From contig CP060758.1 of assembly GCA_023205875.1 (NCBI GenBank), forward strand, positions 434,001 to 498,000: a stretch of 64,000 bases of DNA. The letters are read 5' to 3'. The translations under genes and the position numbers were made by a program. The DNA is from Chloropicon primus (taxonomy: Eukaryota > Chlorophyta > Chloropicophyceae > Chloropicales > Chloropicaceae). Under the pieces are notes generated by a model. That model saw only the letters and a program-made list of their open reading frames with translations, was not told where the DNA came from and ran no database searches. Position 1 is the stretch's first letter. The number at the start of each line of letters is the position of its first letter. Shown piece after piece: positions 13,759 to 62,972 of this stretch.

Positions 13759-13817
13759 CTCGAACCGTAACTAACGTCTCTCACCGAATCATTGTCTCAC
13801 GGAGCATAAATATAAGT

Positions 13818-13906
13818 TGATTCCTCCGAGGATCGAACTCGGCACCTTTCGCGGACAAACTGAAATGTTGTTAGGCGAATGTCATAACCAACTAGACCAA
13901 GGAATC
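13818..13906 (-). tRNA. tRNA-Val(AAC) with a 15-nt intron
   Basis: On the minus strand, acceptor strands GATTCCT (13906-13900) and AGGAATC (13825-13819) pair fully, with discriminator A at 13818. The D arm contains AGTTGGTTA. The anticodon stem TTCGC/GCGAA is perfect with loop CTAACA-C and anticodon AAC (13872-13870). The T arm is CCGAG-TTCGATC-CTCGG. A 15-nt intron (13868-13854) sits at the canonical 37/38 position. An ATATATAT element lies about 50 bp upstream (13952-13963). No run of four or more T follows within 70 bp, which is unusual for a Pol III gene. Confidence 0.9.
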
Positions 13907-17575: not shown

Positions 17576-18586
17576 GAAAGAAAGAAGCAGAGAACGGAGG
17601 AGGCCAAGCACGCGTTGGAAGTGCTGCCAGGGAACGCGTGGCTCCTGATCTTCAAGAAGCTCAGCTCCTACGACCATGTCGCCTTCGCCTCGACCTGCAA
17701 CACGTTCCTCGAAGTGGCGAGCCCAGAGAAGAAGAAGAAGAAGAAGAAGAAGAAGAAGGCTCTTTCCCTGAGGACGGACCTGACAAACAAGACGTTGTTC
17801 AACCAGATGCCTTGCTTCAGTTTGAGTTGGTTCCAGTGGGTGTTTCACTCTTTCAAGAGGAAGAAGGGAGAACCGCAACGCTGGGGAAGGGGAAAGTACT
17901 ACGACCACTTGTACGACTCTGACCTGATGCAACTCGCCGCTTTCCAGGGCAGCATCAAGGCGATCAAGTGGTTGAGGAGCCAAGGGGGTATCCCTCTGGA
18001 TATAAAAGGTAAGGATCATGAGATAGCAGCTCCTTCAGGAGCCGCTGCCGGAGGTCATATTGATGTTCTGGAATGGCTGAGGAGCGAGGGGTGCGGGTTT
18101 GATCGGTGGACTTGCCGTGGTGCAGCCATGGGAGGTCACCTTGATGTTCTGCAGTGGCTCCAAAGTCAGGACCCGCCTTGTGATTGGAACGAGTGGACTT
18201 GTGCTGGTGCAGCTCAATTTGGTCACCTTCACATTCTGCAGTGGGCTCGAAGCCAGGACCCGCCTTGCCCTTGGAACGAGTACACTTGTTCTTATGCAGC
18301 TCAATTTGGTCACCTTGACGTTCTGCAGTGGCTCCGAAGCCAGGATCCCCCTTGCCCTTGGAACAGCGAGACTTGTTATAAGGCAGCTGAAGGAGGCCAT
18401 CTCGAAGTTCTGCAGTGGGCTCGAAGCCAGGACCCGCCTTGCCCTTGGAACAAGGAGACTGGTTCCTTCCATCCATTCCCAATCAACCCCTCTTGCCATA
18501 TCGTCGGATTCCATCTCCATCTTCTCCTCATCTCTTCATTCATTCTAGAGGCCAGCAGCCTCCGGAGGATCATCTCACCACCATAA
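17576..18586 (+). CDS. F-box plus ankyrin-repeat protein (5' exon not identified)
   Basis: The frame opens after a TGA at 17540 and has no ATG before the F-box-like LPGNAWLLIFKKLSSYDH, so a short 5' exon is likely missing; CCCCACCAG at 17567-17575 is a possible acceptor. A Lys run (AAG repeats) separates the F-box from an array of 29-residue ankyrin units (GHLDVLQWLRSQDPPCPWNE, CSYAAQF) spaced 87 bp at 18133, 18220 and 18307 and nearly identical in DNA. F-box/ankyrin proteins usually recruit targets to SCF ubiquitin ligases. After WNKETG the tail is unrelated to the repeats and runs into the next gene's upstream region, so the 3' end may be degraded. Confidence 0.65.
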   Translation, partial: ERKKQRTEEAKHALEVLPGNAWLLIFKKLSSYDHVAFASTCNTFLEVASPEKKKKKKKKKKALSLRTDLTNKTLFNQMPCFSLSWFQWVFHSFKRKKGEPQRWGRGKYYDHLYDSDLMQLAAFQGSIKAIKWLRSQGGIPLDIKGKDHEIAAPSGAAAGGHIDVLEWLRSEGCGFDRWTCRGAAMGGHLDVLQWLQSQDPPCDWNEWTCAGAAQFGHLHILQWARSQDPPCPWNEYTCSYAAQFGHLDVLQWLRSQDPPCPWNSETCYKAAEGGHLEVLQWARSQDPPCPWNKETGSFHPFPINPSCHIVGFHLHLLLISSFILEASSLRRIISPP

Positions 18587-56109: not shown

Positions 56110-56290
56110 GGAGGAGGCAAGCTTGATGTTCTCAAGCGGGCTCGAAGCCGGGGTTGCGCTGTGATTTGGGAGTATCTGAGGTCACCTTCACATTCTGCAG
56201 TGGTTGCGAAGCCAGGACCCGCCTTGTGATCTTCAACACAAGTGGACTTGTTCTGAGGCAGCTCGAGGAGGTCTCCCCTCCACGCCTTCG
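56110..56290 (+). pseudogene. Ankyrin-repeat relic at the left inverted-repeat boundary
   Basis: AAGCTTGATGTTCTCAAGCG encodes KLDVLKRARSRGC, an ankyrin-like unit, immediately outside the left arm. Inside the arm GGTCACCTTCACATTCTGCA gives HLHILQWLRSQDPPC and then CSEAARGG. The two lie in different frames. It belongs to the same unit family as the intact array at 18 kb. The stretch 55807-56109 after the SEL1 stop shows nothing else. Confidence 0.75.
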
Positions 56291-56589
56291 TCGTCGTCCA
56301 TTCTCTCTCGTTTGTTCGCCACCACCGCCGTCTTGAGGCCGTTCCTTTCGTGCTGCTCCTCGTGCTGCTCCCGCTTCTTCCACGCTCGTCCTCGTCGCCT
56401 CCCGTTGCTTTGTTTCCCTCTCGCGCGGCCGTTACGGTTTTTTCCCTTCCGAAGGGATTCGATTCGGGATTCGAGGGATTCGAGGGCGAGGAGACCTTTG
56501 TGGAGGGCTAGCGGGCGCGGTAGGGCGACCCAGGCGCCATGGGAGGGCTCGTTGGATTGGAAGCGTCTCGACCCGGTGAGAGACGGGGC

Positions 56590-56598
56590 AAAAAAAAA
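56590..56598 (-). terminator. Pol III terminator (T9) of the left permuted tRNA
   Basis: Nine A on the plus strand, read as T9 on the minus strand, start 7 nt after the last base of the 5' half (56605). A standard Pol III stop signal at the expected place for a transcript that ends with the 5' half. Confidence 0.8.
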
Positions 56599-56604
56599 GC
56601 GTCT

Positions 56605-56724
56605 TGAGAGCCGGGTATACTAACCAGACTATACTACGTGGGATTGCAGTGAGTGTACTGTTACACTGCGTAGTTGGGAAGCGGAATTCTTCCCACGCCG
56701 GGACTCGAACCCGGGTCGCCCGGG
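56605..56724 (-). tRNA. Circularly permuted tRNA-Glu(CUC), left copy
   Basis: Minus strand, 3' half first. 3' half 56724-56690: C38, CCGGG, CGAC, T arm CCGGG-TTCGAGT-CCCGG, acceptor CGTGGGA, discriminator A. A 46-nt intervening stretch follows. 5' half 56643-56605: acceptor TCCCACG, TA, D arm GTAT-AGTCTGGTTA-GTAT, A, anticodon stem CCCGG, loop CTCTCA with anticodon CTC (56608-56606). It is the same sequence as the right copy through the tRNA halves. Confidence 0.85.
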
Positions 56725-56901
56725 TACAACGAACGCTGTAGTCGATTCGTGGACAACTGTAAAAAAAATGCGGAAATGCACTAGATGTATCACTGTTCTA
56801 TAAGAGACGTTATCCCGCAATTTCCATTTAGGAAATCTCGCCCTCACAAGGGGATACCTACAGATTTGAGTTGTGGAAATGTTGAGTATTTCAAATATGA
56901 A

Positions 56902-57442
56902 CGACTTCGAGTCTTACTCTTGCTGGGCTCTCGGAGAGCTCTGTCTGGTACGGCTGGGCCTTCCTCTTCGTTGTTGGTCAGATTGTATGTTGGCCGCTTG
57001 GCTTCTACGTGCGCAAGCTGCCAATCCTGAACAAGATGTTCTAACAAGAAGATATCGACAAGCAACACTATGTACAGTTATAATCAAGGTGTGCGCGCTG
57101 TCGTGTATCCCCTCCCAATGCCTTTCCCTTGCCTCCATCCATCCCTATATTACCATGCTGGAGGAGAGGAGGGATCGTGATGGCCTCCACCTATGTTGTG
57201 ATTCCTTCCTCCTGCTATTTTCCGTAGAGCCTCACACTTGATGGGAGAAAGGAATCAGAGGATAATTGATTGATTGATTGGTTCACACACAAGACGCAAA
57301 CCACTCACTCACTCACTCACTCTCTGTGATTGAGCTCATGGATGATCAAGCGGACAGAAGCTGACACAGGGGCTTCAAGAGAGAGAGAGAGAGAGAGGAT
57401 CTTATCTCTCCCTTAATCCTCATCCTGATCCTCATCACCGCC

Positions 57443-57478
<36 letters not shown>

Positions 57479-57732
57479 TGATCACCATCTTCCCGCCAAA
57501 CAGATCACCATCCAGATCGCCACGAAGACGAAGCGGACGACGAAGGGATCCGCTCTGCGCAAGGGCGAGGAGGGCGATGGTGGAGGACGACCTGGACGAC
57601 CTGAACTTCGACTTGGAGTCCCCCTTCGATGCTGCCAAGTCCAAGCACGGCTGTGTCGTTTCCCGCGTCCTCGGGGGCGACGCCAAAACGACAAAGGCCA
57701 AGGCATCCAGCAGTGATGCCTGCGAAGGGATG
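56902..57732. other. Inverted-repeat spacer, left part: no gene recognised
   Basis: Unique sequence with (CACT)n at about 57302-57322, (GA)n at 57380-57396 and (CT)n at 57446-57474. A plus-strand frame from 57475 has an acidic stretch DDLDDLNFDLESPFDAAKSK and lacks recognised domains; it could be another gene fragment but I cannot name it. Confidence 0.5.
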
Positions 57733-58899: not shown

Positions 58900-59077
58900 T
58901 TCATATTTGAAATACTCAACATTTCCACAACTCAAATCTGTAGGTATCCCCTTGTGAGGGCGAGATTTCCTAAATGGAAATTGCGGGATAACGTCTCTTA
59001 TAGAACAGTGATACATCTAGTGCATTTTCGCATCTTTTTTTACAGTTGTCCACGAATCGACTACAGCGTTCGTTGTA

Positions 59078-59197
59078 CCCGGGCGACCCGGGTTCGAGTC
59101 CCGGCGTGGGAAGAATTCCGCTTCCCAACTACGCAGTGTAACAGTACACTCACTGCAATCCCACGTAGTATAGTCTGGTTAGTATACCCGGCTCTCA
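59078..59197 (+). tRNA. Circularly permuted tRNA-Glu(CUC), right copy
   Basis: 3' half first, 59078-59112: C38 (59078), anticodon-stem CCGGG (59079-59083), variable CGAC, T arm CCGGG-TTCGAGT-CCCGG (59088-59104), acceptor CGTGGGA (59105-59111), discriminator A. A 46-nt insert (59113-59158). 5' half 59159-59197: acceptor TCCCACG, TA, D stem GTAT/GTAT around AGTCTGGTTA, A26, anticodon stem CCCGG, loop CTCTCA with CTC at 59194-59196. Joined at 37/38 the halves make a 74-nt tRNA-Glu: 7/7 acceptor, 5/5 anticodon and 5/5 T-stem pairs. CAAGACGC (59196-59203) can pair with GCGTTCGTTG (59066-59075), as expected near a splice junction. A B-box-like GGTTCGAGTCC precedes the A-box-like region. Confidence 0.9.
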
Positions 59198-59203
59198 AGA
59201 CGC

Positions 59204-59212
59204 TTTTTTTTT
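59204..59212 (+). terminator. Pol III terminator (T9) of the right permuted tRNA
   Basis: Nine T start 7 nt after the 5' half ends, where a permuted precursor transcript should stop. Confidence 0.85.
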
Positions 59213-59499
59213 GCCCCGTCTCTCACCGGGTCGAGACGCTTCCAATCCAACGAGCCCTCCCATGGCGCCTGGGTCGCCCTACCGCGCCCGCTAGCCCTCC
59301 ACAAAGGTCTCCTCGCCCTCGAATCCCTCGAATCCCGAATCGAATCCCTTCGGAAGGGAAAAAACCGTAACGGCCGCGCGAGAGGGAAACAAAGCAACGG
59401 GAGGCGACGAGGACGAGCGTGGAAGAAGCGGGAGCAGCACGAGGAGCAGCACGAAAGGAACGGCCTCAAGACGGCGGTGGTGGCGAACAAACGAGAGAG

Positions 59500-59670
59500 A
59501 ATGGACGACGACGAAGGCGTGGAGGGGAGACCTCCTCGAGCTGCCTCAGAACAAGTCCACTTGTGTTGAAGATCACAAGGCGGGTCCTGGCTTCGCAACC
59601 ACTGCAGAATGTGAAGGTGACCTCCTCGAGCTGCATAAGCACAAGTATTTCATCCAGTGCTGGTGGACCT
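59500..59670 (-). pseudogene. Ankyrin-repeat relic at the right inverted-repeat boundary
   Basis: On the minus strand: TCAYAARGG-like codons just outside the arm, then GHLHILQWLRSQDPPC and CSEAARGG inside it. Here, unlike the left side, the ankyrin unit continues in frame across the arm boundary at 59622, so this arm is closer to the ancestral ankyrin gene. Confidence 0.7.
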
Positions 59671-61425: not shown

Positions 61426-61616
61426 TGGTACAGGTACACACCAATGACCGATTGTCTTCTTCTCTCCAAAAGAAAAAGAAACCCTCCACCCCAATTTCAA
61501 ACTAAAAAAAAAAATAAAAAAGCAAGCGTCTTTCCCGCCAAGAGGAAAACGTCGCTCCTCTTCTCCTTGTTCTTCTTCTTGTTCTTCTTGCTCTGGTTGT
61601 CTTGGTCACCACCATC

Positions 61617-62972
61617 ATGGCGGAGGAAGGACCCCCTAACAACAACAACAACAATAATGATAATCATGCGTCGTCCTCCTCTGCGACGACGAGGGCGCGG
61701 GTAGGGAGCTTCTTGGAACGGAGGCTCGCACCCATAGCCTCCTCACCGAGCATGGCGTCCTCGTCGTCCCCTTTGGCTTCGCCCATGAGGGGCAAGAGGA
61801 GGAGCACGATGAGGGACGCCCTGAAGCGTTCGGTGGCCAACCTGCAGTACGGCAGGATGCTGAGCAGCGCGGTGAAGGACAAGGACTCTGGTTCGGACAA
61901 GGGCTCCCCAAGCTTGGGAGCCTTCAGGAGGTCGAGCTTCCTCCAAGGCGACAGCTTTCGCGAGGAGGACAAGGAGAACGTGGAGGCCATGCCGAGCGGG
62001 GACGTGTTCGTGATGGGGACGGTGGTGGGCCTGAGGCCGGCGGCGAACAGCGAGCTCGGGGGCTGGGGCAAGAGCCTGTGGTGCGAGTGGAAGGTGGTGA
62101 AGGACGACAAGTGGTCCATCGTCAGGGGAGGGAGGGAGGGCCTCACGCACAAGGCCCTGCCGAGCACGGACGACGGGCTCTACGTGTGGCAGAGCCCCCT
62201 GAACGTGCAGCTGAGGACGAAGACGAGCTTTGATTGGCCAAAGCTGTGTTTCACGATCTTCGAGAGGGACGGCCTCATGTCCACGGACACGGTCTTCGGC
62301 TACTCCCTCGTGTCCCTTCCCATGGAGCCCGGGTACCACCGCCTGGAGGCCAAGTGCTGGCGGCCCACCTCCAGGGTCAAGTGCATCGACTGTGAGTTGA
62401 GCGTGGCTTACACGGGGATCAGGCCGGAGCTGAGGAGCAAAAGTCTGATCTGGCAGAGGGAAGGACCTTACATGAACATGCAGACCGTTGGCATCGGGGC
62501 GATCGAGCTCGAGCTGAACATCGTGTTCTCCAAGGAGATCGACGAGCTCTTCGATATCGAGCTCACCGAGACGGAGGCCAGCAAGTCGTCGCAGGGCGAC
62601 TTGCTGGCGAGCAAAGGGAACGGAGCCTCCTCTCTCGCGGAGGAGCCCCAGAGCGAGGGCCTGAGGATCGTGAGGAGCAGGAGGGGAAAGAGGTTCAACG
62701 AGGTCACTTCGAGCCTTGTGGCCGCGAACATGATGAAGAAATCCGTCGGCAAGAAGTTTGATCCCATGTCCAACCCCGCCTCCCCCTTTCCTTCGAGCCA
62801 GGCGGCCCAGGGGTCCGCGGGAGGCGTCGACTCTGTGCTCTCCCCGGCGGACCAAGCCCGGGCGGACAGGAGGCAAAGAATGCAAGCCCTCATGCAAGAC
62901 AGGGAGCAGAGAAGGGCGGAGCGGGCCCAGAGGAAAAACACCCTCGAGGACCAACCGGGCGACGCGGCTTGA
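61617..62972 (+). CDS. B9-domain protein (ciliary transition zone type)
   Basis: 451 residues from ATG 61617. A disordered Asn/Ser-rich N-terminus is followed by a B9 (C2-like) domain from about residue 125: VFVMGTVVGLRPAANSELGG, SLWCEWKVVKDDKWSIV, TSFDWPKLCFTIFERDGL, TVFGYSLVSLPMEPGYHRLE, ending near IVFSKEIDELFDIEL. B9D1, B9D2 and MKS1 form the tectonic-like transition-zone complex gating the cilium. The domain is most like B9D1/B9D2, but the protein is twice their length, with a long basic C-terminal tail; MKS1 is another possibility. The last exon's 3' end is partly duplicated downstream. Confidence 0.75.
   Translation: MAEEGPPNNNNNNNDNHASSSSATTRARVGSFLERRLAPIASSPSMASSSSPLASPMRGKRRSTMRDALKRSVANLQYGRMLSSAVKDKDSGSDKGSPSLGAFRRSSFLQGDSFREEDKENVEAMPSGDVFVMGTVVGLRPAANSELGGWGKSLWCEWKVVKDDKWSIVRGGREGLTHKALPSTDDGLYVWQSPLNVQLRTKTSFDWPKLCFTIFERDGLMSTDTVFGYSLVSLPMEPGYHRLEAKCWRPTSRVKCIDCELSVAYTGIRPELRSKSLIWQREGPYMNMQTVGIGAIELELNIVFSKEIDELFDIELTETEASKSSQGDLLASKGNGASSLAEEPQSEGLRIVRSRRGKRFNEVTSSLVAANMMKKSVGKKFDPMSNPASPFPSSQAAQGSAGGVDSVLSPADQARADRRQRMQALMQDREQRRAERAQRKNTLEDQPGDAA

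Follow-up and report, generated by a model that had tools for sequence, protein, structure and literature searches.

In the green alga Chloropicon primus, positions 59078-59212 (plus strand) of the window, by which we mean the whole 64-kb stretch of DNA analyzed here, hold what, judged from its sequence, is a nuclear, circularly permuted tRNA-Glu(CUC) gene of type II, with its halves in reversed order and its junction at 37/38 (Table 1). The genome of this strain, RCC138, comprises 17,584,162 bp in 20 contigs of 417,210 to 1,855,637 bp (PMC12301720, Table 1 therein). A sequence-only reading had proposed such a gene, and the reversed halves with a 46-nt gap between them are borne out by the coordinates and by a score of 55.9 bits against the covariance model described below. 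Placed in natural order, the halves give 74 nt with standard pairs at 7/7 positions of the acceptor stem, 5/5 of the T stem and 5/5 of the anticodon stem, and inspection recovered further elements listed by that reading: TTCGA in the T loop, A73, and the anticodon CUC, here within a loop that reads C-T-CTC-A-C. As A37 flanks the junction on either side, joins at 36/37 and at 37/38 yield identical mature RNA. The run of nine Ts said to lie behind the 5' half is present, and the pairing of leader and trailer claimed around the junction was found between AGCGTT and GACGCT.

Standard searches are blank here, as is expected if the gene is permuted: ARAGORN run without introns reported no tRNA in the 64-kb window, and neither did Rfam at its gathering threshold. 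The intronless scan also missed an ordinary tRNA-Val(AAC) gene with a 15-nt intron at window positions 13818-13906 (minus strand), which is followed by a 32-base repeat considered further below.

Used as a query, 166 bases of the locus identified an identical permuted tRNA-Glu(CUC) gene, absent from the earlier reading, on the minus strand at 56605-56724. The two copies lie in the arms of an inverted duplication, in which 723 of 725 blastn columns are identical and the permuted gene is intact on both sides; such identity indicates that the duplication is recent. Between the copies, at window positions 57364-57501, a hairpin attracts many plant miRNA models below their cut-offs on both strands, and this pattern shows an inverted repeat rather than a miRNA. 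Downstream of the permuted gene, positions 59532-59647 share repeat units, 78-82% alike, with several units at 18131-18441.

Table 1. Features of the window and permuted tRNA genes elsewhere in the C. primus genome (C, contig; L, fetched locus; R1, covariance model for permuted tRNAs).
Feature	Position	Strand	Basis or remark
Leader of tRNA-Glu(CUC); AGCGTT 59065-59070 able to pair with trailer	59062..59077	+	P 0.034 versus 1000 shuffles
3' half of tRNA-Glu(CUC), positions 38-73	59078..59112	+	R1 match 55.9 bits, stems inspected
46-nt spacer, acceptor loop of expected circular intermediate	59113..59158	+	coordinates
5' half of tRNA-Glu(CUC), positions 1-37, anticodon CUC	59159..59197	+	R1 match, stems inspected
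Trailer; GACGCT 59199-59204 pairs with leader	59198..59204	+	folding versus shuffles
T9 run, likely Pol III terminator	59204..59212	+	sequence
3' half, second tRNA-Glu(CUC) copy	56690..56724	-	R1, coordinates
Spacer, second copy	56644..56689	-	coordinates
5' half, second copy	56605..56643	-	R1, coordinates
T9 run, second copy	56590..56598	-	coordinates
Right arm of 725-column inverted duplication containing the tRNA-Glu(CUC) gene	58900..59624	.	blastn
Left arm of same inverted duplication	56178..56901	.	blastn
32-base repeat in window	13774-13805	-	also at L003, L008, L009, L093, L099, L114, L117 and others
Permuted tRNA-Glu(UUC)	C14:98385-98475		R1 58.9 bits; 17-nt spacer; on a different chromosome from Glu(CUC), flanks unlike
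Permuted tRNA-Arg(ACG)	C1:1319750-1319865	-	R1 61.9 bits; spacer 44
Permuted tRNA-Ser(UGA)	C3:655664-655756	-	R1 41.1 bits; spacer 11
Permuted tRNA-Ser(CGA)	C9:641421-641514	-	R1 42.6 bits; spacer 13
Permuted tRNA-Phe(GAA)	C5:63067-63246 (L117:18-197)	+	R1 60.9 bits; spacer 107

The covariance model, R1, was built from 16 ordinary tRNAs of the same genome, rotated in silico at 37/38 and given a spacer of N; its training set contains no tRNA-Glu, and two class II rows were dropped. When the rotated tRNAs carried random spacers their halves were misaligned, and N spacers were used for the final 16. Against the 64-kb window, the tRNA-Glu(CUC) site scores with an E-value of 9.6e-16, and a match of 15.8 bits lies beside the ordinary tRNA-Val(AAC) gene. 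In a further 87 loci, 264,752 bases in all, the highest score outside the permuted genes is 27.1 bits and is explained by half of an ordinary tRNA gene; each listed match falls within a locus that also carries a tRNA gene. Further non-permuted matches on fetched loci score at most 19.8 bits, or at most 24.7 bits in another set, where they lie beside tRNA-Val(UAC), and the 30 loci that hold no tRNA genes (L039-L068) gave no match at E<=10.

The earlier reading had called for a search for permuted tRNAs beyond the window and, run on the fetched loci, this search found five further kinds, bringing the genome to at least seven permuted genes of six kinds: Glu(CUC) in two copies, Glu(UUC), Arg(ACG), Ser(UGA), Ser(CGA) and Phe(GAA), with anticodons assigned by eye from the stems. 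The T stem of Ser(UGA) has one mismatch. All six kinds are of the 37/38 type, as found with a model built for 37/38 only. The list is a lower bound, as the search covered only the 37/38 junction, T stems in which GG precedes TTC, and T loops without R60. The loci scanned include all 42 sites of the pattern GGGTTCRANYCCC (17 in its control) and all 24 of AGGTTCRANYCCT (24 in its control). The pattern YGGTTCRANYCCR occurs at 49 sites versus 64 in its control, and three of the 49 are known ordinary genes; 23 of the remaining 46 were fetched and read, and the only two with a full T stem, L132 and L136, were not accepted as tRNAs. Another pattern, GGTTCRANNCC, proved useless, with 531 sites versus 554 in the reversed control and thus no enrichment.

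A normal tRNA-Glu elsewhere in the genome was another point raised at the outset. A tRNA-Glu probe in natural order, run against the whole genome, gave seven matches. One was tRNA-Asp(GUC) on C17, at 87% identity over query positions 7-69; the others were halves of the three permuted Glu loci, matched separately, with the 3' half ahead of the 5' half in each locus. Within the sensitivity of the probe, no ordinary tRNA-Glu gene was detected. DNA probing of this kind overlooks diverged relatives, as seen when a plant initiator tRNA-Met probe found no match genome-wide despite an ordinary intron-bearing initiator tRNA-Met gene at L116. As the tRNA-Glu probe finds only permuted Glu loci and tRNA-Asp, permuted genes appear, on this sequence evidence, to be the sole source of both Glu isoacceptors.

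With the Rfam tRNA family (RF00005), 63 of 285 genome candidates were scored; among these, 33 ordinary tRNA genes and no permuted ones lie above the cut-off, and two of the 33 (L024 and L032) are doubtful by eye. Ordinary genes with introns include those for Val(AAC), Val(UAC), Pro(AGG), the initiator Met and Ile(AAU). The tRNA count published for RCC138 is 46 and comes from tRNAscan-SE (PMC12301720), a program that, according to a review, finds tRNA genes that are intronless or have canonical introns (PMC3978253). Some individual genes are unusual in other ways. A tRNA-Lys(UUU) gene at C4:559650-560062 (L098) has, by eye, one intron in the D loop and a second at 37/38, and its Rfam score of 23.2 bits is below the cut-off. 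A tRNA-Ser gene at C19:260712-260817 (L035, minus strand) has a 24-nt intron that, by eye, seemingly sits ahead of or inside the anticodon, at 33/34 or 34/35, instead of at 37/38. At C4:1124897-1127803 (L011, L029-L031), four tRNA-Pro(UGG) genes stand in tandem, about 0.95 kb apart. A plus-strand frame at window positions 61602-62972 scores 100.7 bits for the B9-C2 domain of ciliary basal bodies; Chloropicon is not known to bear flagella.

At the junction of each of the six kinds, the anticodon stem with the trailer was folded against the leader with the anticodon stem, and 1000 shuffled versions of leader and trailer served as the reference. The pairing gave P values of 0.034 for Glu(CUC), 0.024 for Glu(UUC), 0.028 for Arg, 0.126 for Ser(UGA), 0.056 for Ser(CGA) and 0.043 for Phe; in every kind it is better than the mean of the shuffles, and the mean z is -1.92. 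In the bulge-helix-bulge register that we assigned by analogy with 37/38 introns, Glu(UUC) has 7/8 positions filled, and Glu(CUC) has 4/8 pairs in strict register together with a 6-bp outer helix that is offset by one base. The genome also encodes two homologues of the tRNA splicing endonuclease (PF01974, cut-off 27 bits), one on C3 at 70.1 bits and one on C7 at 53.9 bits. Folded as bare RNA, the mature cloverleaf is at -26.7 kcal/mol versus a minimum of -35.8, and the precursor at -41.5 versus -50.0 kcal/mol, a preference for other folds that arises in part because the 3' acceptor strand is able to pair with the spacer.

Signals for transcription were mixed. Runs of at least four Ts lie downstream of four of the five permuted kinds tested, of 15 of 31 ordinary genes, and of about 8% of random 40-nt stretches. 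The upstream DNA was 62% AT versus a background of 41%. Upstream 6-mers learned from the 33 ordinary tRNA genes scored high for Arg and Ser(UGA) (P of 0.0002 and below) and gave P 0.015 for Ser(CGA), or 0.14 when matched for AT content; they were absent before both Glu genes (P 1.0 and 0.40), and Phe was left out as it has too little upstream DNA.

The 32-base repeat mentioned above has 24 sites in the genome and none in the reversed control. At 22 of the 24 it follows a gene of Pol III type at a distance of 8-154 bp, downstream and in the same orientation, the genes being 17 ordinary tRNAs, three permuted ones (Glu(UUC), Arg and Phe), the SRP RNA and a lone 3' half of tRNA-Met; for the other two sites, the closest listed gene is 530 bp away in one case and 2,592 bp in the other. 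At 12 loci, as judged by comparing coordinates by hand, the same strand also codes for a related protein, 0.7-1.1 kb downstream of such a gene. Two cut frames of this protein score 17.7 and 18.0 bits against Resolvase (PF00239), below its cut-off of 23.3, and PF00239 is among the precomputed domains of three of seven full-length relatives, all from C. primus; no match was found in NCBIfam or among solved structures. From these sequence features, the repeat and the protein family probably represent a mobile element with Pol III genes as its targets. The lone tRNA-Met 3' half (L105, about C9:636458-636494) is followed by the same DNA that lies downstream of the complete tRNA-Met genes on C16 and then by the repeat, as if the element had carried along part of a tRNA gene. 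The idea that permutation shields a gene against the downstream element was rejected, as the element sits beside three of the seven permuted genes and 17 of the 39 ordinary ones examined, so that permuted genes are not spared; the count is biased, as several of these genes were located via the element itself.

We are confident that this locus is a functional nuclear tRNA-Glu(CUC) gene in circularly permuted form (type II, 37/38 junction), of which C. primus carries two identical copies. It might instead be a non-functional remnant of a decayed tandem array, from which one tRNA-Glu gene has kept its 3' half and its neighbor the 5' half; such arrays do occur in this genome, as the four tRNA-Pro(UGG) genes on C4 attest, and a lone half tRNA exists at L105. 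We consider this unlikely, however, as the stems are complete, both copies in the duplication are intact, and the pairing of leader and trailer exceeds that of shuffles. Further arguing against decay, both Glu isoacceptors are permuted and no ordinary tRNA-Glu was found, yet GAA and GAG codons need to be read.

A misassembly that reversed the halves is very improbable. Although the gene lies within a recent inverted duplication, a setting prone to such errors, other permuted kinds including Glu(UUC) occur at unrelated loci, and the chromosomes of RCC138 and CCMP1205 are, according to the authors of the genome paper, entirely collinear (PMC12301720). More improbable still is a chance meeting of two halves from which no tRNA is formed; nothing was found in its favor, and it is refuted by the E-value of the R1 match, with no match at E<=10 in the 30 loci without tRNA genes.

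For the working permuted gene, we infer both expression and a circular intermediate; very probably, the cell closes the tRNA-Glu(CUC) RNA into a ring and then recuts it. A single Pol III transcript would fold into a structure in which a site resembling a bulge-helix-bulge is framed by the anticodon stem on one side and the leader-trailer helix on the other. The tRNA splicing endonuclease would cut off leader and trailer, a ligase would join position 37 to 38 to give a circle, RNase P and tRNase Z would remove the 46-nt acceptor loop, and after addition of CCA the tRNA would read GAG. We infer each of these steps for Chloropicon from published work on other algae, a pathway of transcript, endonuclease, circle, RNase P/tRNase Z and CCA having been described for Cyanidioschyzon merolae and green algae (PMC3978253).

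Permuted tRNA genes as such are known, and the closest parallels are found in the Mamiellophyceae (Ostreococcus and Micromonas; PMC3978253, Table 1), where, as in Chloropicon, the genes are nuclear and of the 37/38 type, with short spacers and a downstream T run, and where Ser(CGA) and Ser(UGA) are likewise permuted. Chloropicon, in contrast, belongs to the class Chloropicophyceae; its Glu(CUC), Glu(UUC), Phe(GAA) and Arg(ACG) are absent from that 2014 table, and its Phe(GAA) spacer of 107 nt exceeds the maximum of 74 nt among the 34 permuted genes tabulated there (PMC3978253). Cyanidioschyzon merolae shares with Chloropicon a compact algal genome whose tRNA set is composed of ordinary, intron-bearing and permuted genes, the latter with reversed halves, but its junctions fall at 20/21, 37/38, 50/51 and 59/60 (PMC3978253), versus 37/38 for all six kinds detected in Chloropicon by a 37/38-only model. 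Chlorarachniophyte nucleomorphs also have permuted genes of the green lineage, but these are for Ser(AGA) and Ser(CGA) (PMC4494063), and in Auxenochlorella, likewise of the green lineage, permuted genes were noticed only once the tRNAscan-SE set proved incomplete (PMC12633428). For Chloropicon, we found no report of permuted tRNAs in the literature searched, most subscription papers being outside the reach of that search, and neither of the two Chloropicon genome papers uses 'permuted' in its main text.

A more far-reaching scenario, which we hold to be doubtful, would combine these observations. All Glu and Phe codons, together with those read by Arg(ACG), Ser(CGA) and Ser(UGA), would be read only via circular tRNA intermediates; the permuted Ser(CGA) and Ser(UGA) genes held in common with the Mamiellophyceae would trace the habit back to an early green-algal ancestor; and the recombinase-like element downstream of Pol III genes, having apparently carried the tRNA-Met 3' half on C9, would supply the rearrangements that give rise to permuted genes. 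As Chloropicon and the Mamiellophyceae each have these two Ser genes in permuted form, an ancient versus a recent origin can be tested by comparing their flanks across the classes.

With the genes described here, permuted tRNA genes now reach a further class of green algae, the Chloropicophyceae, and Glu, Phe and Arg(ACG) are added to the isoacceptors of the 2014 table. The findings further suggest that both tRNA-Glu species of an alga may depend on the circularization of RNA.
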